Virus record (IMG/VR): IMGVR_UViG_3300021354_000499
Coordinates: 1 to 48,099 of that record
Length of the DNA: 48,099 bases
Origin: a virus
Strand: one strand, 5' to 3'
Shown here: in pieces, positions 8,192 through 48,099 of the stretch
How the letters are laid out: the number at the start of each line of letters is the position of its first letter
Position numbering within the stretch: the stretch's first letter is position 1
Notes under the pieces: model-generated
Seen by the model: the letters and a program-made list of their open reading frames with translations, nothing else
Database searches by the model: none
What the model was told of the DNA's origin: nothing
Position numbers and translations under genes: made by a program

Positions 8192-8914
8192 ATGAAAAAA
8201 TCATTAATTGGACTAGTTCTTGCTCTAACAAGTACATATACATTTGCACAAATTAACAATCAATGTCCGCAATTTACTGTTAACGGAACTCCTCTTTATC
8301 AACCACATCCAGGTGATCAAGAAATTTGTCATTTAAATTATGCTGTGATACATCGTTGTGATGTTAAAGCACCTGTTGCAGTTTTTGAACATTTAACTGT
8401 TGCAGCAATGTCAGGTCCAGCAAAAAGAAAAGATAATTTTCACCCTGATGCATTAGTTTCACCACAATGCTCTGCATCATTAGCAGACTATGCTACAGTT
8501 GGTAAGACACATGATCGCGGTCACATGTCCCCAGCAGGTAATAATACACAATCTGCAGAAATTATGAGTGAAAGTTTTAACCTAAGCAATATGTTAGCTC
8601 AAAATTCAAGTAACAACAGAGGCGGTTGGCGCTTACTTGAAACTGCTGAACGTCAATGGGCAACTGCTCCAGGCACTGACTTTTATATTATTTCAGGTGG
8701 CATTTTTGATCAAGGACATCCTGTAACAGGAAATGGCCTAGGAATACCAACTCGTATATATAAAATTATTATTGAAAAAAATAGTAGAACTGTTCAAGCA
8801 TATTTGATGCCAAATGCTCCAATCAGTCCAGCTACTGATTGGCCTAAGTATCAAGTACCGATGTCTGCAATAGAACAAGCAACAAAAATGGATTTTGGGT
8901 TAGGTCAACAATGA
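8192..8914 (+). CDS. Exported DNA/RNA non-specific endonuclease
   Basis: Encodes 240 residues. An N-terminal signal peptide (MKKSLIGLVLALTSTYTFAQ, cleavage expected after about residue 19) precedes a nuclease domain with the hallmark DRGHMSPAGN (catalytic His near residue 111) and a downstream SNNRGGW segment bearing the Mg-binding Asn region. This is the beta-beta-alpha-metal family of Serratia nuclease and EndoG. Export suggests it acts in the periplasm or outside the cell, for example on competing DNA or on released host nucleic acid. Preceded by a late-like promoter motif. Confidence 0.85.
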   Translation: MKKSLIGLVLALTSTYTFAQINNQCPQFTVNGTPLYQPHPGDQEICHLNYAVIHRCDVKAPVAVFEHLTVAAMSGPAKRKDNFHPDALVSPQCSASLADYATVGKTHDRGHMSPAGNNTQSAEIMSESFNLSNMLAQNSSNNRGGWRLLETAERQWATAPGTDFYIISGGIFDQGHPVTGNGLGIPTRIYKIIIEKNSRTVQAYLMPNAPISPATDWPKYQVPMSAIEQATKMDFGLGQQ

Positions 8915-18431: not shown

Positions 18432-20081
18432 ATGATTTCAGTCGTTAAACGGAATGGGGCACGAGTTCCTATAGACATAAGCAAAATACAAAGACAGGTA
18501 GCACACGATTGTAAAGGCATTGATGGTGTAAGCCCAAGCATGATTGAGATTAAAGCTCAAATTGAACTTCACGACGGAATGTCAACTAAAACTATTGATG
18601 AATTATTATTAAAAGCAATGGTTGATTTAATTGACGAAACTGAAAATCCAGAAATTAACAATACAAACTATCAATATGTTGCAGGTCGACAAAAAGTTTC
18701 AATGCTTCGTAAAGAAGTGTATGGCTCTTATACTCCTCCTAGTTTATACGAAATCGTTAAGAAAAATGTAGATATCGGAATATACTCATCTGAACTACTT
18801 GAGTGGTATACTAAAGAAGAATGGGGAATTATTGATCTATTTTTAGATCACGACAAGGACGAGTCATACACTTATGCGGCAATTGCACAGTTAGCAGAAA
18901 AATATCTAGTTCAAAATCGAGCTACTGGTCAAATATACGAAACTCCGCAAGTGCGATATGCTATTGCAGCCGCGACAGCATATCATAACGAACCAGCGAG
19001 CAAAAGATTAAAATATGTTAAAGAATATTACGAGTGCGCTAGTGATGGTAATTTTACCCTTGCTACTCCTGTTCTTGCTGGCCTTGGAACTCCTACTAAG
19101 CAGTTTAGTAGTTGTGTTCTCATTAGCAGTGATGACACTCTTGACTCCATTTTTGCCTCGGGAGAAATGATGGCAAAATATGCTAGTAAACGTGCTGGCA
19201 TAGGACTAGAGATCGGAAGAGTAAGACCTCTCGGTGCCCCTATTAGAAATGGAGAAATTAAACACACTGGTTTGATTCCTTTCTTAAAGAAATGGCTAAG
19301 CGATTTGAAAAGCTGTTCGCAAGGCGGCATTAGAAATGCATCATGTACTGTTACACTTCCAATTTGGCATGCACAATTTGAAGACTTTATTGTCTTGAAA
19401 AATAATCAAGGTACTGAAGAAAATCGTGTACGCCAAATGGATTACAGTATTGTTTTAAATAAAATGTTTTGGAATAGATATAGAAAAAGTGAAAACATTA
19501 CTTTATTCGACCCACACGAAGTTTCAGATTTATACGAAGCATTTTATAGAGATCAAACAGAATTTGAAGAACTTTATCTAAAATACGAAAAAGACGAAAC
19601 AAAGACAAAAAAAGTATTAACTGCTGAATCAATATTCAATAGTATTTTAAAAGAAAGAACAGATACAGGACGAATTTATCTTATAAACATCGATAATGTT
19701 ATTAATCAAGGACCATTTGATAGTACAACTGATCCTATATATATGTCAAATTTATGTTTAACGGGTGATACCGTTATTCAGATTATGAACACAGACGGGT
19801 CTGTTCAGTCGATATCTCTTGCCAGCTTTGTTGAACAATATGAATTTGGTGCAATGACTGGTGTTAAGGTTAGAAGTTCAAATATTTCAACAGGAGAAGT
19901 TACTTGGAATACTGTAAGCGACGCGGCCAAAACTGCAACGGTAACAGAACTAATTGAAATTGAAGATGAATCGGGTAAAATTATTAGATGTACACCTGAT
20001 CATCAAATATATACAAAGAATCGTGGATATGTTAAGGCCGGCGATTTATTAGAAACAGATGTGTTATGTATGGAAGAATAA
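18432..20081 (+). CDS. nrdA: NrdA N-terminal part fused to split-intein N-half
   Basis: Residues 1-441 are the N-extein of class Ia ribonucleotide reductase alpha: ATP-cone start (VVKRNGARVPIDISKIQRQV) and GLGTPTKQFSSCVLI with the redox Cys equivalent to E. coli C225. The extein ends MSNL; residues 442-549 are the intein N-half, beginning CLTGDTVIQIM and containing the block-B motif CTPDHQIYTKNRGYV. The reading frame then stops. The missing part of NrdA is the next gene. The two extein lengths add to 761 residues, the size I recall for E. coli NrdA. Makes dNTPs from NDPs with NrdB and glutaredoxin. Confidence 0.93.
   Translation: MISVVKRNGARVPIDISKIQRQVAHDCKGIDGVSPSMIEIKAQIELHDGMSTKTIDELLLKAMVDLIDETENPEINNTNYQYVAGRQKVSMLRKEVYGSYTPPSLYEIVKKNVDIGIYSSELLEWYTKEEWGIIDLFLDHDKDESYTYAAIAQLAEKYLVQNRATGQIYETPQVRYAIAAATAYHNEPASKRLKYVKEYYECASDGNFTLATPVLAGLGTPTKQFSSCVLISSDDTLDSIFASGEMMAKYASKRAGIGLEIGRVRPLGAPIRNGEIKHTGLIPFLKKWLSDLKSCSQGGIRNASCTVTLPIWHAQFEDFIVLKNNQGTEENRVRQMDYSIVLNKMFWNRYRKSENITLFDPHEVSDLYEAFYRDQTEFEELYLKYEKDETKTKKVLTAESIFNSILKERTDTGRIYLINIDNVINQGPFDSTTDPIYMSNLCLTGDTVIQIMNTDGSVQSISLASFVEQYEFGAMTGVKVRSSNISTGEVTWNTVSDAAKTATVTELIEIEDESGKIIRCTPDHQIYTKNRGYVKAGDLLETDVLCMEE
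19755..20078 (+). other. Split intein, N-terminal half (108 residues)
   Basis: Starts with Cys (CLTGD) and carries the TxxH block B (C-T-P-D-H). It closely resembles the phage/metagenomic NrdA and NrdJ split inteins I recall (CLTGD start, CTPDH-x-x-YTxNRGYV). No endonuclease domain is present. It splices in trans with the half encoded at 20082-20183. Confidence 0.92.
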
Positions 20082-20183
20082 ATGCTTAAAATAAAAAGAA
20101 TTACAGTAGAACCAACTGATGTGTATGATATTACTGTGCCAGAAACTGAATGTTTTTTTGCTAATGACATATTGGTCCACAAT
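20082..20183 (+). other. Split intein, C-terminal half (34 residues)
   Basis: Starts MLKIKRITVEPTDVYDITV and ends ECFFANDILVHN, followed by the +1 Cys. F-F-A-N-D-I-L-V-H-N is the usual intein block F/G. It begins at the base after the TAA of the N-half gene. Confidence 0.93.
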
Positions 20184-21146
20184 TGCCAAGAAATCCTTTT
20201 ACCTACACGACCATTCCAACGTATTGAAGATCCAAATGGTAGAATCTCGTTATGTACACTAGGAAGCATAAATTGGGGTTCATACCGTAATCCACAAGAT
20301 ATGCGTAAAGCATGTCGTGTGTTGGTCCGGTCACTTAGTAACTTATTAAACTATCAAGACTTCTTAAGTATTCAAAGTAAACTTGCAAATGATGAATTTG
20401 AACCACTTGGTATTGGTATTACTAATTTAGCATATTGGCATGCAAAACGTAACTTTAAATATGGTGACGAAAATGCATTAGCTGAAGTTAAACGATGGAT
20501 GGAACATCAGGCATATTATCTAACTGAAGCAAGCATTGATCTGGCACAAGAACGCGGTGCATGTGAACGTAGTCAATATACCTATTACGGTCGAGGAATA
20601 TTTCCATGGGAAAGACGTTCATCAGGCGTTGACGAATTAACAGATTTTACACCGAGTTTAGATTGGGAACAACTTCGTGTACGTATGAAAGAATTTGGAA
20701 TTCGCAATGCTACATTAATGGCAGTTGCTCCAGTTGAATCTAGCTCAGTTGTTCTAAACTCCACCAATGGTATCGAAATGCCAATGGAATTGATTTCTGT
20801 AAAGGAATCAAAAGCTGGATCGTTTGTACAAGTTGTTCCAGAGTACAAACGTCTTAAGAATCGTTATCAATTAATGTGGGATCAACAAGATTGTATCGGT
20901 TATTTAAAAACTGCGGCTGTACTTGCAGCCTATGTTGATCAATCACTTAGTACAAATACTTTTTATAATCCTGCATTTTTCCAAGAAGGAAAAGTACCAG
21001 CAACACTTATAGCTAAAAACTTAATGTTAGCGTATAAGTGGGGTTTGAAAACGATTTATTACTCATTAATTAACAAGGTCGGTGCTAAAGTTTCAATTGA
21101 ATCAGATACTATTGAAGATGAAGATTGCGAATCTTGTAAACTTTAA
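20082..21146 (+). CDS. nrdA: Split-intein C-half fused to NrdA C-terminal part
   Basis: Residues 1-34 are the intein C-half; residues 35-354 (320) are the C-extein CQEILLPTRP. Its first residue is the thiyl-radical Cys (E. coli C439) and the third the catalytic Glu (E441). RISLCTLGSINWG holds the second redox Cys (C462), LKTIYYSL the radical-transfer Tyr pair, and the tail DCESCKL the C-terminal reducing pair. All known catalytic residues are thus present. The gene starts right after the TAA of the N-part, with no spacer and no endonuclease gene between. Confidence 0.93.
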   Translation: MLKIKRITVEPTDVYDITVPETECFFANDILVHNCQEILLPTRPFQRIEDPNGRISLCTLGSINWGSYRNPQDMRKACRVLVRSLSNLLNYQDFLSIQSKLANDEFEPLGIGITNLAYWHAKRNFKYGDENALAEVKRWMEHQAYYLTEASIDLAQERGACERSQYTYYGRGIFPWERRSSGVDELTDFTPSLDWEQLRVRMKEFGIRNATLMAVAPVESSSVVLNSTNGIEMPMELISVKESKAGSFVQVVPEYKRLKNRYQLMWDQQDCIGYLKTAAVLAAYVDQSLSTNTFYNPAFFQEGKVPATLIAKNLMLAYKWGLKTIYYSLINKVGAKVSIESDTIEDEDCESCKL

Positions 21147-26876: not shown

Positions 26877-27632
26877 ATGTTCTACACAGTATATAAAACA
26901 ACTAATCTCATTAACGGCAAGATTTATGTTGGGCTTCATGTAACTCGTAATTTAGAAGATAATTATTTAGGCAGCGGATCTCAACTCAAATCAGCAGTTA
27001 AGAAATACGGCAAGGAAAACTTTAAGAGAGAATATATTAAGATATGCAATTCTCCAGAAGAGATGTATAAGTTAGAAGCAGACATCGTAAATGAAGATTT
27101 TGTTAAAAGATCTGATACTTACAATATGAAAACAGGCGGAACTGGATCTTGGTATCATGTAAATTCTAACTCAGAACAAAAGCGTAAGAATAGTAGCAAA
27201 GGCGGCGTAAAGGCTTCTAGCAGAGGTACTAATCCTTTTAAAGATCCGGAATGGCAGAAACAATATAATTGGACACGCACACCGGAAATATTAAAAGCTA
27301 ACAGTATTAAAGCCAAAAGTCCAGAAGCTATTGCAAAAAAGAAAAAAACATTTTTAGAAAGAAACCATCAACAAGGTGAAAAAAATTCACAATATGGTTC
27401 AAAATGGTGTGTTGAAGAGACGGCAATCGATATAAGTAATAGAAAAAAATTTAAAGAAGTTCCAGTAGGTTGGATAACTACAACAGAATGGAAAGAAAGA
27501 AAAAAGAATAAATTAAAACCGGCATACGGAAAACATTGGTATAACGACGGAATTATCAATTATTATCTATATCCAACAGATGATAAAATAAAAGAATTAA
27601 ATTTAGAAAAAAGAAGACTAGTTTCTAAATAA
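26877..27632 (+). CDS. GIY-YIG homing endonuclease
   Basis: Encodes 251 residues. The N-terminal ~90 residues are a GIY-YIG domain: FYTVYKTTNLINGKIYVG (Y-V-Y ... K-I-Y-V-G), NLEDNYLGSG, and the metal-binding Glu in LEADIVNEDFV. The C-terminal part has Lys-rich NUMOD-like DNA-binding modules (KNSSKGGVKASS, NPFKDPEWQ, KAKSPEAIAKKK). It lies immediately upstream of the tmRNA gene, with the structured stretch on its other side, so the pair may form a mobile unit at the tmRNA locus. A late-type octamer (CATAAATA) sits 6 bp before its ATG. Confidence 0.88.
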   Translation: MFYTVYKTTNLINGKIYVGLHVTRNLEDNYLGSGSQLKSAVKKYGKENFKREYIKICNSPEEMYKLEADIVNEDFVKRSDTYNMKTGGTGSWYHVNSNSEQKRKNSSKGGVKASSRGTNPFKDPEWQKQYNWTRTPEILKANSIKAKSPEAIAKKKKTFLERNHQQGEKNSQYGSKWCVEETAIDISNRKKFKEVPVGWITTTEWKERKKNKLKPAYGKHWYNDGIINYYLYPTDDKIKELNLEKRRLVSK

Positions 27633-27684
27633 CAGAATTGTTGTTAAAAGCTCTTTATGAGAGTATCAACTAAAGTGAAAGTAT

Positions 27685-27990
27685 GTGAGACGCGGAGTGG
27701 TGTCCGCCACCTCCACCAGAAAACATCATAAGTGCTCGCAAACCTATTAATAGGCGTGTATAAAAAGTCTGGAGGGTGGACGCATAAAGAGATCCTCTAT
27801 GGTGTTTTCTAATGGGGGTGTATAATCCTTTCGATCATGTATAATAGCGGAAGTTGCAACAGGTTAGATGACCGACCTAATCGGCATAAACTAAGTATTC
27901 GCAAATGACGAAAACTACACAATGGCAATGGCTGCTTAAAATCAGCACAATGTCGGAGTTTAACTAACTTGGCAACAGAATCAGTTACTA
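27685..27990 (+). ncRNA. ssrA: Circularly permuted tmRNA (ssrA), tag ANDENYTMAMAA
   Basis: A 12-codon tag starts at GCA 27901 and stops at TAA 27937 (ANDENYTMAMAA), close to proteobacterial tmRNA tags such as ANDENYALAA. Eighty-seven bases upstream is GGGGGTG (27814), followed by TTTCGATCATG, as in a tmRNA 5' end and D-loop. Its partner CACCTCC-A-CCA (27708-27718) lies upstream, so the acceptor stem is formed across a 95-nt spacer: the gene is permuted, with acceptor piece first and coding piece second. The T-arm GCGGA/TCCGC (27692-27707) has an odd GTGGTG loop instead of TTCGA. A terminator follows. It rescues stalled ribosomes and tags nascent protein for proteases such as ClpXP, whose ClpX this phage also encodes. 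Confidence 0.85.
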
Positions 27991-28016
27991 ATAGCACCTT
28001 TGGGTGCTATTTTTTT
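27991..28016 (+). terminator. Rho-independent terminator after tmRNA
   Basis: ATAGCACC-TTTG-GGTGCTAT stem followed by TTTTTT. It fixes the 3' end of the tmRNA transcript soon after the tag region, as expected for a permuted gene. Confidence 0.88.
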
Positions 28017-33631: not shown

Positions 33632-33785
33632 TACTTTAATCAAAAGAGTCAGGATTTATTACAATTAGATTAAATAGTCAACGTAAGGACGCAGGTATAT
33701 TTTGCAAGGATTCAAACACCCCGAAACCGAAAGATTAACGGGCGTTAATCTTATTTAATTAGTCAAATACCTATAGGAGGTTCTA
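33632..33785 (+). promoter_or_regulatory. pmoC leader with hairpin and strong Shine-Dalgarno
   Basis: The 154-bp leader has a perfect stem AGATTAAC-GGGC-GTTAATCT (33732-33751) with a T-rich tract after it, which may end upstream transcription or mark an attenuator. AGGAGG at 33775-33780 is an exact ribosome-binding site 5 bp before the ATG, among the strongest in the window. No good sigma-70 promoter or late octamer is evident here. Confidence 0.5.
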
Positions 33786-34795
33786 ATGGCTAGTATAGCA
33801 GAAAAAGTAAAAAGTGATGTTGCAGAAACACCGCTTTTAAATGTAAGAAATTTATTATTAGCAGCATCGCTTTATATTTTATTTTATGGTTGGGTTCGTT
33901 GGTATGAAGGTGTATATGGATGGTCAGCAGGTTTAGACTCATTTGCACCAGAATTTGAAACTTACTGGATGAACTTTTTATATATTGAGTTTGTTTTAGA
34001 AACAGCAACAGCTGGTATTTTGTGGGGTTACATCTGGAAAACACGTGATCGTAAAGTTGCATCAATTACTCCACGAGAGGAGTTGAGAAGACATTTTACT
34101 CACTGGACTTGGTTGGTATCTTATGCAATCGCTGTATATTACGGTGCAAGCTATTTTACTGAGCAAGATGGAACATGGCATCAAACAATTGTTCGTGATA
34201 CTGACTTTACTCCAAGTCATATTATTGAATTTTATTTGAGCTATCCAATTTATATTATTACAGGTGTAGCATCTTTTCTATATGCTAGAACAAGATTACC
34301 AGCATACCAAAATGGGTTATCATTAATGTACTTGGTATCAGTCGTTGGTCCATTTATGATCTTACCAAATGTCGGGTTAAATGAATGGGGTCACACATTT
34401 TGGTTTATGGAAGAGTTGTTTGTCGCTTAATTAAATGGGCGCGTATAGTAGCAATATTATAATGAAAACTTTGTGAAAACGGTGGATATCCAGAACGGAC
34501 AATACCGTGCTAAGTCTCGATAGAGAAAAGTGTAACGACTAGTCGAAAGACGTACATCCAAGTGGATGGAAGCGCAAAGCAACTACACGTAGTTGAAGAG
34601 ATAGTCTACTCTATATAGGAATATATAGCAGTTCATAAGAGAACGGTATAAGAATAACGAACTTATGCGAATATAATGCCTTTACATTACGGATTTGTTT
34701 TCTTCGGATGGGCTACACTTGGTGTATTAGGTGTAGTAAATACAGAAGTACAAGCAATATCTAAATTGCTTAAAAAAGATTTAGTGAATATCTAA
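33786..34795 (+). CDS. pmoC: Particulate methane monooxygenase subunit C, intron-split
   Basis: Two exons (33786-34427, 34679-34795) make a 252-residue PmoC. Multiple membrane helices; YEGVYGWSAGLDSFAPEFET and the conserved Cu ligands D128, H132 and H145 (DGTWH ... TPSH) match the Cu_C site, and N199, H203 (exon 1) with H217 (exon 2: PLHY) match the Cu_D site (M. capsulatus N227, H231, H245, as I recall). All are present, so the spliced protein may be active. PmoC is the subunit nearest the putative active site of methane oxidation. Sequence looks type I methanotroph-like; the C-terminus is a few residues shorter than host PmoC. No pmoA or pmoB is in the window, so it would have to join host PmoA and PmoB. 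Confidence 0.93.
34428..34678 (+). other. Group I intron in pmoC (251 bp, no ORF)
   Basis: The 5' exon ends in U (GTCGCT) and the intron ends in G (TATAATG), as in group I introns. Exon CGCT (34424-34427) pairs with GGCG (34438-34441), with the required U.G wobble. Core motifs are visible: an R-like GTGTAACGACTAGTCG (from 34530) and an S-like GAAGAGATAGTCT (34594-34607), whose GACTA/TAGTC halves form P7. Splicing joins codons GCT and CCT cleanly (V-A | P-L-H-Y). A mobility protein is absent, so movement would need help in trans. Confidence 0.88.
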
Positions 34796-39187: not shown

Positions 39188-39627
39188 TTATCTAAAAGTC
39201 TTGCAGGATAATCTGTACAGATACCAAAACAATTCTTATCAATATTTTCAAACAGTGGATCATTCCATTCAGGCATAACCATTACACTATTTTTTGTCAA
39301 AGTCTTTCCTGGGTAAGTCCAAATATATCTGTGGCTTGTTAATGTAAATTGATCTTCTTCATGCCAAAAATAATTAAGATTAGTTTTAGTCAACCAATAT
39401 AACGCATCTAAGTTTTTGGCATGAATCCATAATCCAGCAGTTGCAATAAATCCTAGCTCAATTTCATAGGTTGGAAGATCATGTCCCAACCATAATTTAT
39501 CATCAATTACCCAAAGATCAATTTCACAATCGTATCCTTGTTTAAGTGCAAGCTCAATTTGTCTTGGATTATTTTCTATATCTTTATTTGGACCATTAAC
39601 AAGACCTCGATGTGCAATTAGTATCAT
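39181..39627 (-). CDS. GDPD-like (glycerophosphodiester phosphodiesterase fold) protein
   Basis: A 148-residue minus-strand protein: MILIAHRGLVNGPNKDIEN (H-R-G with the usual E/N), then GYDCEIDLWVIDDKLWLGHD (E-x-D-L-W ... G-H-D), matching the TIM-barrel GDPD core. It is short for this family (usually ~240), so the rest of the barrel may be missing or replaced. It overlaps the RuBisCO-like gene by four bases, so the two are co-translated. Phosphodiester bond cleavage is likely, substrate unknown. Confidence 0.7.
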   Translation of the reverse strand: MILIAHRGLVNGPNKDIENNPRQIELALKQGYDCEIDLWVIDDKLWLGHDLPTYEIELGFIATAGLWIHAKNLDALYWLTKTNLNYFWHEEDQFTLTSHRYIWTYPGKTLTKNSVMVMPEWNDPLFENIDKNCFGICTDYPARLLDKK

Positions 39628-40817
39628 TTAATTAAACCCCATTTTGTAATTGCTTGATAATATTCAGGACCATATGTTTTATCAATCGATTGACGCATTG
39701 CTAAAGCACCTGATAATGTTCCTCCTGGATGTCCATGAACTGCTCCGCCTACATTTGCTAAAAAATCATTTCCTGTTAAACTTACAATTTTTTCAACCAG
39801 TCCAGGATGAAATCCACAACTTAATACTGGTAATGTATTACCAGCACGTAATACATTAATACTTTCTGTTAGCTCTTTTGGATCGTCGTTGCTGTATCCA
39901 CCTAACATACCAGTTTGTATAGTATCAACACCCATCATTGTAGCAAGTTGGCAAATAACTGGCCATGCAATACTAAATCTATGTTTAGCATCTGTCATTA
40001 ATTTATCACCAGATTTTTGAAAATGAAGAAATAAAGGCAAATCTAATTGACGAATCGCATTATATACTCCTAATCCACTAAAGACATTGATATGTACTCC
40101 ATTACCACCTAATTCTGCAACTCTTTTAACACGATCAATAATCACATGATGATCAGCATTAACAGTATGACAAAAAACAACTTTACGACTTTGTTTTGCA
40201 AGATAGTTAGCAATAATATCAACCCTGCGTTCTAATGGAGCACACACAGGATTTGACATAATTTCGTCTTCTTTAATGAAATCTGCACCACCATCAACTT
40301 GTTGTTTTACCATTTCTAATAATACTTCAGGAGTAATACCAATTTTTGGTTTAACAATGCTACCAAATAACGGTTTATCAAATTGACCTGTAAATTGGCG
40401 TATTCCACTTAGACCAAATTTAGGTCCTTTAAAATACCTTGTAACTGTTTCCGGTAATTCTAACTTAATTAGTCGACAAGAAGTAACACAATCAATATCA
40501 ACATGTCCGCCCATTAATTGGCAAATTAGATGACTTATACCATCTGTTGCCCAATCAGTATTTGCAACAGGAAATGCAATTTCAACTGTTCCAATTTTAG
40601 ACTGTTTTAAAATTTCTTCTTCGGCAAGAATTATACAACTATGATTTTCAAATATTTCATCAGTTTCCCATTCATTTCGAACATTTGGATTACCAACGCT
40701 CTGGCCAATTGCAATATTCCATGCAGCATCATTTAAACTAGTATTGCTTGTTAAATCATACGTAGCAATAAAATACTTGTTTAAATCAATTTCATTTCTT
40801 TCTCTATAAAACTTCAT
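39624..40817 (-). CDS. RuBisCO-like protein (form IV)
   Basis: A 397-residue RuBisCO large-subunit homologue. KPKIG (K156/K158, equal to spinach K175/K177) and GGADFIKEDE (K182, D184, E185 at the carbamylation/metal site) are conserved, with HRF for H294. Loop 6 reads QTGMLGGYSND with no Lys for K334 and no His for H327, so it is not a true carboxylase. Form IV RLPs act as enolases, isomerases or other C-C/C-O enzymes of sugar or methylthio compounds. Overlaps the cupin gene upstream by 14 bases and the GDPD-like gene downstream. Confidence 0.9.
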   Translation of the reverse strand: MKFYRERNEIDLNKYFIATYDLTSNTSLNDAAWNIAIGQSVGNPNVRNEWETDEIFENHSCIILAEEEILKQSKIGTVEIAFPVANTDWATDGISHLICQLMGGHVDIDCVTSCRLIKLELPETVTRYFKGPKFGLSGIRQFTGQFDKPLFGSIVKPKIGITPEVLLEMVKQQVDGGADFIKEDEIMSNPVCAPLERRVDIIANYLAKQSRKVVFCHTVNADHHVIIDRVKRVAELGGNGVHINVFSGLGVYNAIRQLDLPLFLHFQKSGDKLMTDAKHRFSIAWPVICQLATMMGVDTIQTGMLGGYSNDDPKELTESINVLRAGNTLPVLSCGFHPGLVEKIVSLTGNDFLANVGGAVHGHPGGTLSGALAMRQSIDKTYGPEYYQAITKWGLIK

Positions 40818-43077: not shown

Positions 43078-43531
43078 TAAATGAACAACATTCACCATTA
43101 GAGCTCGCACAGGCTAACTTCGTGTGCCAATGACAACGGAACCGTTTGGTTGCCGGGACTGAACTGCTGTGGTGGCAGGAACTTAGTGACTATCCTTAAC
43201 AGGACGAAGATCAGATATGCCTTCATAAAACTGGTTTCGCTATTTGAAGAATTTTAGTAAAGGCTTAATGAAGGGACTGTGTGCCCTACGTTGTACTGCA
43301 AGACTGATATTTGTAGTATAACCGCCGTCGTATAAAGACGCAACTCGAGGTACCGGACGACCGCCTCTGTAATGTTGTAATATCAGGACTGTAAAGAACT
43401 CAGATAATGTTTCTTTTATCACTTTGCCCTGTCTGGGCAAAGTGTGACCATTGAATCTAGATAATATATTCAGTGTCAGTTTTAAAAAATGTGATGAGTG
43501 CAAACGAAATCACAAGTGAGCTTAAGCTCAC
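43078..43531 (+). ncRNA. Large putative structured ncRNA (~450 nt)
   Basis: No coding frame is convincing on either strand. Many hairpins are visible: GCACA/TGTGC near 43106-43126, CGGAACC/GGTTGCCG near 43137, CTGC/GCAG near 43170, CCTTCAT/ATGAAGG, AGGG/CCCT, and a perfect CACTTTGCCC-TGTCT-GGGCAAAGTG (43420-43444), ending in GTGAGCTT-AAGCTCAC (43516-43531) before hemA. The strong promoter upstream, GC-richer sequence and long-range complementarity support a structured RNA. It does not match my recall of RNase P, 6S, tmRNA or a group I intron; relatives of large phage RNAs such as ROOL or GOLLD are possible but unproved. Confidence 0.6.
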
Positions 43532-47142: not shown

Positions 47143-47793
<651 letters not shown>

Positions 47794-48034
47794 TAATTTA
47801 CCGGCCTCCCGTTAATAAAATTCCGTGAATTGCTGGAACACCCTTAGAGCTTTTCATACTACAGCATAATTAGTGATGATAAGTGCGAATGTTAAAAAAT
47901 GAATAGATTGGGCAATCAGCAGCCAAGGGACTTAGGAATAAGTTCAAGGTTCAACGACTAGGTCATGGAGTCCAGACAGGACAGTAAAGGCCCAAGAGTG
48001 CGGAAGTTTTGTAAAATTTTGTAATATTAGATAC

Positions 48035-48072
48035 TTATCATAAGTACTGCGTAAAGGAAGCACTTATGATAA
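48035..48072 (+). promoter_or_regulatory. Hairpin over start of intron-encoded gene
   Basis: TTATCATAAGT (48035-48045) and ACTTATGATAA (48062-48072) form a perfect 11-bp stem. The 16-nt loop holds the ribosome-binding site AAAGGAAG and the ATG lies in the stem, so translation should be repressed in this fold, as known for phage T4 I-TevI. Confidence 0.65.
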
Positions 48073-48099
48073 ATGAAAAATTATATAACTATGTATATA
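48066..48099 (+). CDS. Start of intron-encoded endonuclease (GIY-YIG-like), truncated
   Basis: Only 11 codons are in the window (MINEKLYNYVY). The Y-N-Y-V-Y start is like the first strand of GIY-YIG endonucleases, compare FYTVYKTTN at 26877. It lies inside the dnaK intron after a strong ribosome-binding site. Identity is inferred from few residues. Confidence 0.5.
   Translation, partial: MINEKLYNYVY

Follow-up and report, generated by a model that had tools for sequence, protein, structure and literature searches.

A group I intron in a phage pmoC gene and the probable spread of its family by collaborative homing

In the viral record IMGVR_UViG_3300021354_000499, analyzed over its whole 48,099 nucleotides (nt; hereafter the window), the methanotroph-phage copy of pmoC, a gene central to methane oxidation in bacteria, stops in frame after codon 214, and the rest of its coding sequence resumes 251 nt downstream. 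The locus raises the question of what this insert is, whether a complete PmoC can still be made, and why the insertion falls within the code for a copper site. We regard it as very likely that the insert is a self-splicing group I intron of subgroup IA2 lacking an open reading frame (ORF), and that its family spreads mainly by collaborative homing into the conserved pmoC gene of phages.

Exon structure and the joined PmoC protein

The interrupted gene consists of the following elements, all on the plus strand:

about 33776-33781, plus strand: AGGAGG ribosome-binding site, just 5' of pmoC exon 1
33786..34427, plus strand: pmoC exon 1, PmoC residues 1-214 (Pfam AmoC, PF04896, E-value 4e-106)
34428..34678, plus strand: ORF-less group I intron, IA2-like, 251 nt, starting with an in-frame TAA and ending with the terminal guanosine (omega-G) at 34678; identified by Rfam RF00028 and covariation
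34679..34795, plus strand: pmoC exon 2, residues 215-252 and the stop codon, beginning with PLH and including the Cu_D ligand H217

The ORF at 33786-34430 covers PmoC residues 1-214 and ends with TAA (34428-34430), and the in-frame translation of exon 2 (34679-34795; PLHYGFVFFGW...DLVNI) supplies 38 residues absent from it. Excision of exactly 34428-34678 (251 nt) yields a full PmoC of 252 amino acids (aa) with both copper-ligand triads, which aligns without gaps to the solved PmoC 6cxh chain C (residues 1-249, E-value 3e-147). The ligands D128/H132/H145 and N199/H203/H217 are all present in the joined protein and invariant across the alignment of phage PmoC proteins. A reading of this DNA from its letters alone (the sequence-only reading) had proposed these splice points, the six ligands and an intron lying between H203 and H217, and all of this agrees with the alignment. 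It had also let the unspliced product run for two residues beyond the dipeptide VA; TAA follows directly, so the unspliced message would give a 214-aa product that ends immediately after VA and lacks H217. We take the PmoC numbering to be that of M. capsulatus minus 28, and N199/H203/H217 to belong to Cu_D. The Cu_C triad has been named as Asp156, His160 and His173 (PMC7674155). Judged by the ligands and full length of the predicted products, the window and the related loci described below encode the PmoC subunit of particulate methane monooxygenase.

Identification of the insert as a group I ribozyme of subgroup IA2

When the local stretch alone was scanned with cmscan, the Rfam group I model RF00028 matched at 34418-34628 (82.9 bits, E-value 1.4e-21). 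The match was missed in a scan of the whole window, presumably due to the speed filters of Infernal, and only short ranges reveal it. The following elements of the ribozyme were located:

34424..34441, plus strand: P1, exon CGCU (34424-34427) paired with the guide GGCG (34438-34441), with a U-G wobble at the splice site; from sequence reading and the Rfam P1 alignment
34469-34474 with 34574-34579, plus strand: P3, two-sided changes at 5 of 6 pairs
34537-34541 (GACUA) with 34602-34606 (UAGUC), plus strand: P7 pseudoknot, one two-sided change (GACCA/UGGUC, in L037 intron 2)
34542..34568, plus strand: P7.1 and P7.2 hairpins, located after the 5' strand of P7 and before the 3' strand of P3, every pair covarying

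U34427 and G34438 form the splice-site U-G pair and G34678 is the last intron base; all core elements are retained, including P3-P8 with the P7 pseudoknot, as well as the omega-G. The group I features listed in the sequence-only reading (U at the exon end, terminal G, CGCU/GGCG guide and P7 halves), for which it had suggested a covariance-model scan, are thus supported by the match and by covariation. Across 11 aligned introns (that of the window and ten related ones), 96.9% of cells are paired over 71 pairs, those of the P7 pseudoknot among them. Two-sided changes occur at 55 of the 71 pairs, against a mean of 30 in shuffled alignments (0 of 500 shuffles as high) and 4-17 in slid controls; because covariation lies so far above both, chance is excluded as the source of the intron match. 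The P7.1 and P7.2 hairpins are a mark of group I subgroup IA2. On these sequence features, the identification of the insert as an IA2 group I intron is firm. It contains no ORF and, as had been noted earlier, encodes no endonuclease. A chance open frame was also considered for the interrupted pmoC and rejected.

Related introns in other phage pmoC genes

Three scans of viral contigs yielded roughly 100 pmoC contigs, the pmoC loci of which are given L-numbers. Besides the window, six distinct pmoC loci on nine contigs are interrupted, carrying ten more introns that match RF00028 at 64-105 bits. Exact removal of the introns in silico restores a full-length PmoC of 250-262 aa in all seven distinct intron-bearing loci. 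The insertion sites (window residue numbering) are:

after residue 45: L040
after residue 202: L038 intron 1
in codon 205: L007 and L014
in codon 207: L037 intron 1 and L038 intron 2
after residue 214: the window and L038 intron 3
in codon 220: L008
after residue 224: L037 intron 2 and L038 intron 4

Six of these seven sites fall in a 66-nt part of the Cu_D segment, a clustering expected from random placement with P about 2e-4, if the sites are independent events, which perhaps they are not. The most densely interrupted gene, L038, has four introns and five exons, the inner exons being only 13, 23 and 30 nt long. A terminal G is present in 10 of the 11 related introns, the exception being L038 intron 1 (L038 1540-1790), which ends in A and may be splicing-defective, poorly spliced or affected by a sequence error. 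The intron of L040, far from Cu_D, is closest (79%) to an L038 intron at a similar GGT/TGG target, which suggests intron movement between like sequences. The window intron is 79% identical to that of L007 and 76% to that of L014, both at another site, versus 67% to L038 intron 3, which occupies the window's own site; this is a further hint that introns have changed position.

Among five intron-bearing phage records searched, each holds one to five group I introns, mostly within pmoC; none was detected in three intron-less phages. Further group I introns outside pmoC are found at 90180-90373 of the L040 record and 8670-8874 of the L038 record. At the end of the window (47158-48099), a DnaK-like ORF breaks off behind FDLGG (47796), partway through the conserved motif DLGGGTFD. 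Another group I-like stretch comes next (47777-48079; 36.3 bits, below the gathering score), and no second exon is reached before the window ends. In a DNA search of named phages, intron cores gave matches (about 70-78%, 548 records), and no pmoC was found in that collection.

Uninterrupted pmoC genes are represented by 56 distinct phage alleles. The best 80 methanotroph host loci, ranked by score and hence a biased sample, are all uninterrupted. Within one methanotroph family (151 genomes), pmoC matches were obtained in 134 genomes, with full-length uninterrupted copies in 128 and weaker matches only in six. The same intron, which the sequence-only reading had proposed to look for in host pmoC, occurs neither in those 80 loci nor in these 128 genomes, and no group I intron was found in three host genomes searched. 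Host pmoC as the donor of the intron was rejected on these grounds.

Constraint on the coding sequence downstream of the introns

From the intron zone to the end of pmoC, the ratio of nonsynonymous to synonymous substitution rates (dN/dS) is about 0.05 between the window and L001, L004 or a host, and 0.02 over the same stretch between two intron-bearing alleles, L037 and L038. By this measure, the pmoC sequence downstream of the introns is under strong purifying selection. An untranslated exon 2 would not show such constraint, so the message is evidently spliced.

Endonuclease-like neighbors and a transferred tract

In L007, L014, L008, L037 and L038, a gene of 217-294 aa lies on the opposite strand directly downstream of pmoC, while in L040, whose intron is near the gene start, a relative of the L037 neighbor is encoded directly upstream. 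All six intron-bearing loci other than the window have an endonuclease-like gene next to pmoC, on its downstream side where the introns are C-terminal and on its upstream side in the one case of an N-terminal intron. Most of the neighbor proteins have a common C-terminal zinc-finger-like block. Pfam matches comprise GIY-YIG in L038 (24 bits), a weak SegE in L008 (20.7 bits) and weak NUMOD3 in L014 and L040; the neighbors are putative free-standing GIY-YIG/zinc-finger endonuclease-like genes. Such a neighbor accompanies 6 of the 7 intron-bearing loci, compared with about 6 of the 56 that lack introns (Fisher P about 1e-4), a count that serves as support only, being biased by queries taken from intron-bearing loci and by contigs that end nearby. 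The link between neighbor and intron is strong, not absolute.

A trace of movement is seen in L007, which belongs to a phage about 99% identical to those of L001-L003 and differs from them by one tract beginning at the intron site. This tract holds the intron, an exon 2 of 87-90% identity and an inserted 651-nt endonuclease-like gene. On either side of it the phages agree almost completely, exon 1 at 612 of 614 positions and the DNA beyond the tract at 398-399 of 400 relative to L001 and L003. Intron, exon 2 and endonuclease gene together form the footprint expected of collaborative homing (PMC3984707), the process also associated with cyanophage psbA and its endonuclease F-CphI, and in sequence terms the tract is a co-transfer with co-conversion of the flanking exon. 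No close relative of the window phage was found for the same comparison.

What was computed comprises the identity of the intron, the exact exons, conservation in frame, the distribution of sites, the neighbors and the transferred tract; from this we infer splicing in the cell, endonuclease cleavage and protection of the carrier, as follows. The ORF-less IA2 intron after codon 214 of the methanotroph phage pmoC would be removed from the pre-mRNA by two guanosine-initiated transesterifications, giving normal PmoC. It would belong to a mobile family that repeatedly invades the most conserved stretch of phage pmoC. When two phages infect one cell, a free-standing GIY-YIG/zinc-finger endonuclease would cleave the pmoC copy that lacks the intron, close to where the intron inserts, and repair would copy intron, flanking exon and endonuclease gene together, while the presence of the intron would shield the carrier's pmoC from cleavage. 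In the window phage, which has no endonuclease neighbor, the intron would be inherited vertically or depend on an outside enzyme.

Weighing of alternative explanations

Several observations weigh against this scenario. Splicing in the cell is deduced from sequence, and in phage LR_6 the C-terminal pmoC piece was reported by Chen et al. 2020 (PMC7674155) to be expressed at a much lower level, a finding compatible with incomplete splicing and also with other causes. No endonuclease-like gene lies within 2.5 kb of the window intron, which would be either a relic, vertically inherited, or served in trans by an enzyme from elsewhere. Similar endonuclease genes also adjoin some intron-less pmoC genes (L028, L039). 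For the proteins of L007 and L014, Pfam gives no GIY-YIG domain and nothing better than a weak NUMOD3 hit, and a poor structural model of the L007 protein (predicted local distance difference test score 61) resembles I-TevI only loosely at its N-terminus (target-normalized template-modeling score 0.54, E-value 0.3).

The driver of intron presence is likely mobility rather than a methane "switch". The sequence-only reading had described a ribozyme switch and had made methane-oxidation capacity depend on splicing. Neither is supported: nothing indicates regulation, and the hosts have their own uninterrupted pmoC. An intron retained as a switch would make PmoC output follow conditions in the infected host (its copper, oxygen, temperature or energy status), comparable to the light-dependent splicing reported for cyanophage psbA in PMC5931967, and the unequal expression of the two LR_6 pieces speaks for it. 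We consider this unlikely, as the patchy presence, the seven sites and the existence of 99%-identical phages of which some have the intron and others lack it fit a mobile element, and the 251-nt window intron shows no sign of an additional regulatory domain. The location at Cu_D is better explained by homing into the most conserved DNA, because related introns occupy six sites there and L040 carries one at a like target far off. There is, similarly, a small chance of conditional splicing, whether responding to copper, temperature or energy state or acting through exon skipping in the four-intron allele; if true, ribozymes would set the amount of the methane-oxidizing subunit made by the phage in infection.

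Alternatively, the intron may no longer splice, leaving pmoC a pseudogene or a source of the N-terminal product alone. The low C-terminal expression in LR_6 and the possibly impaired L038 intron 1 would be in line with such a broken gene, which is rendered improbable, even more so than a switch, by the strong purifying selection after the introns, the exact reading frame in every intron-bearing locus and the complete core and omega-G of the window intron. An assembly artefact or contig chimera deserves mention since the window is a single 48-kb metagenome contig and near-identical host pmoC genes confuse assembly (PMC7674155). This is hardly credible: the same-site intron recurs in L038, other-site introns come from several independent metagenomes (pairs L007/L013, L008/L009, L014/L015), and a chimeric join would not place a whole ribozyme with covarying pairs precisely between two codons.

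Other features of the window

An NrdA-like ribonucleotide reductase at 18432-21146 has an apparent split intein with intein-like ends (CLTGD..., ...FFANDILVHNC); the stop codon of its first ORF (TAA, 20079-20081) directly precedes the next ATG. A phage ClpX (30193-32520), encoded near bS21-like, GroES-like and pmoC genes, carries an intein in the ATPase P-loop (GPTGCGK/.../T) with a LAGLIDADG domain (Pfam E-value 5e-11). A permuted transfer-messenger RNA-like gene (RF04321, 72 bits) occupies 27618-28014, and a GIY-YIG endonuclease gene (26877-27632) ends at its 5' edge. The Polynucleobacter-1 RNA (RF01718, 86 bits) is found at 43102-43245 on this methanotroph phage. On the minus strand, a RuBisCO large-subunit-like ORF (39624-40817) lies beside a cupin-like ORF, as judged by eye.

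Known systems and implications

The sequence-only reading held a phage metabolic gene with its own ribozyme to be unusual; a precedent exists in psbA of cyanophage S-PM2, described in PMC5931967 (citing Zeng et al. 2009 and Millard et al. 2004, 2010) as having a group I intron with in-frame stops and a downstream endonuclease, F-CphI. Both systems combine a host-derived energy-metabolism gene in a phage with an ORF-less group I intron containing in-frame stops. The S-PM2 endonuclease gene lies just downstream and its target is interrupted by the intron, and endonuclease-like genes adjoin the six related pmoC loci. In contrast to psbA, pmoC is interrupted at seven or more sites, a single gene holding as many as four introns, the window locus has no endonuclease neighbor, and for pmoC both splicing and cleavage are predictions. 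A second parallel is orf142 of Staphylococcus phage Twort, for which three group I introns, a 23-nt exon and exon skipping are described (Landthaler and Shub 1999, as cited in PMC10136302). Several IA2-type introns in one phage gene with very short exons between them are common to both, whereas L038 has a fourth intron, a still shorter exon and a location in a metal-enzyme subunit gene.

"Fragmented" pmoC genes were described in phages TP6_1, BML_3, BML_4 and LR_6 by Chen et al. 2020 (PMC7674155), where a transcribed non-coding stretch of unknown function separates the LR_6 pieces and the main text does not mention introns. These are phage pmoC genes in two pieces, as here, and the gaps are likely the introns described above. 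In the open-access literature searched, no publication joins pmoC and a group I intron; the element is of a known kind, new for pmoC within that literature and extreme in intron density.

Near-identical phages with and without the element could be used for studying homing in nature, and the four-intron pmoC with its 13-nt exon is an uncommon natural case in which to examine how accurately ribozymes splice. Like psbA, pmoC is a host-derived energy gene whose active-site code has been invaded time and again by introns paired with endonucleases. If the gaps reported by Chen et al. are such introns, "fragmented" phage pmoC genes would be intact intron-bearing genes, and functional phage pmoC would be undercounted by gene callers and metabolic-gene surveys.
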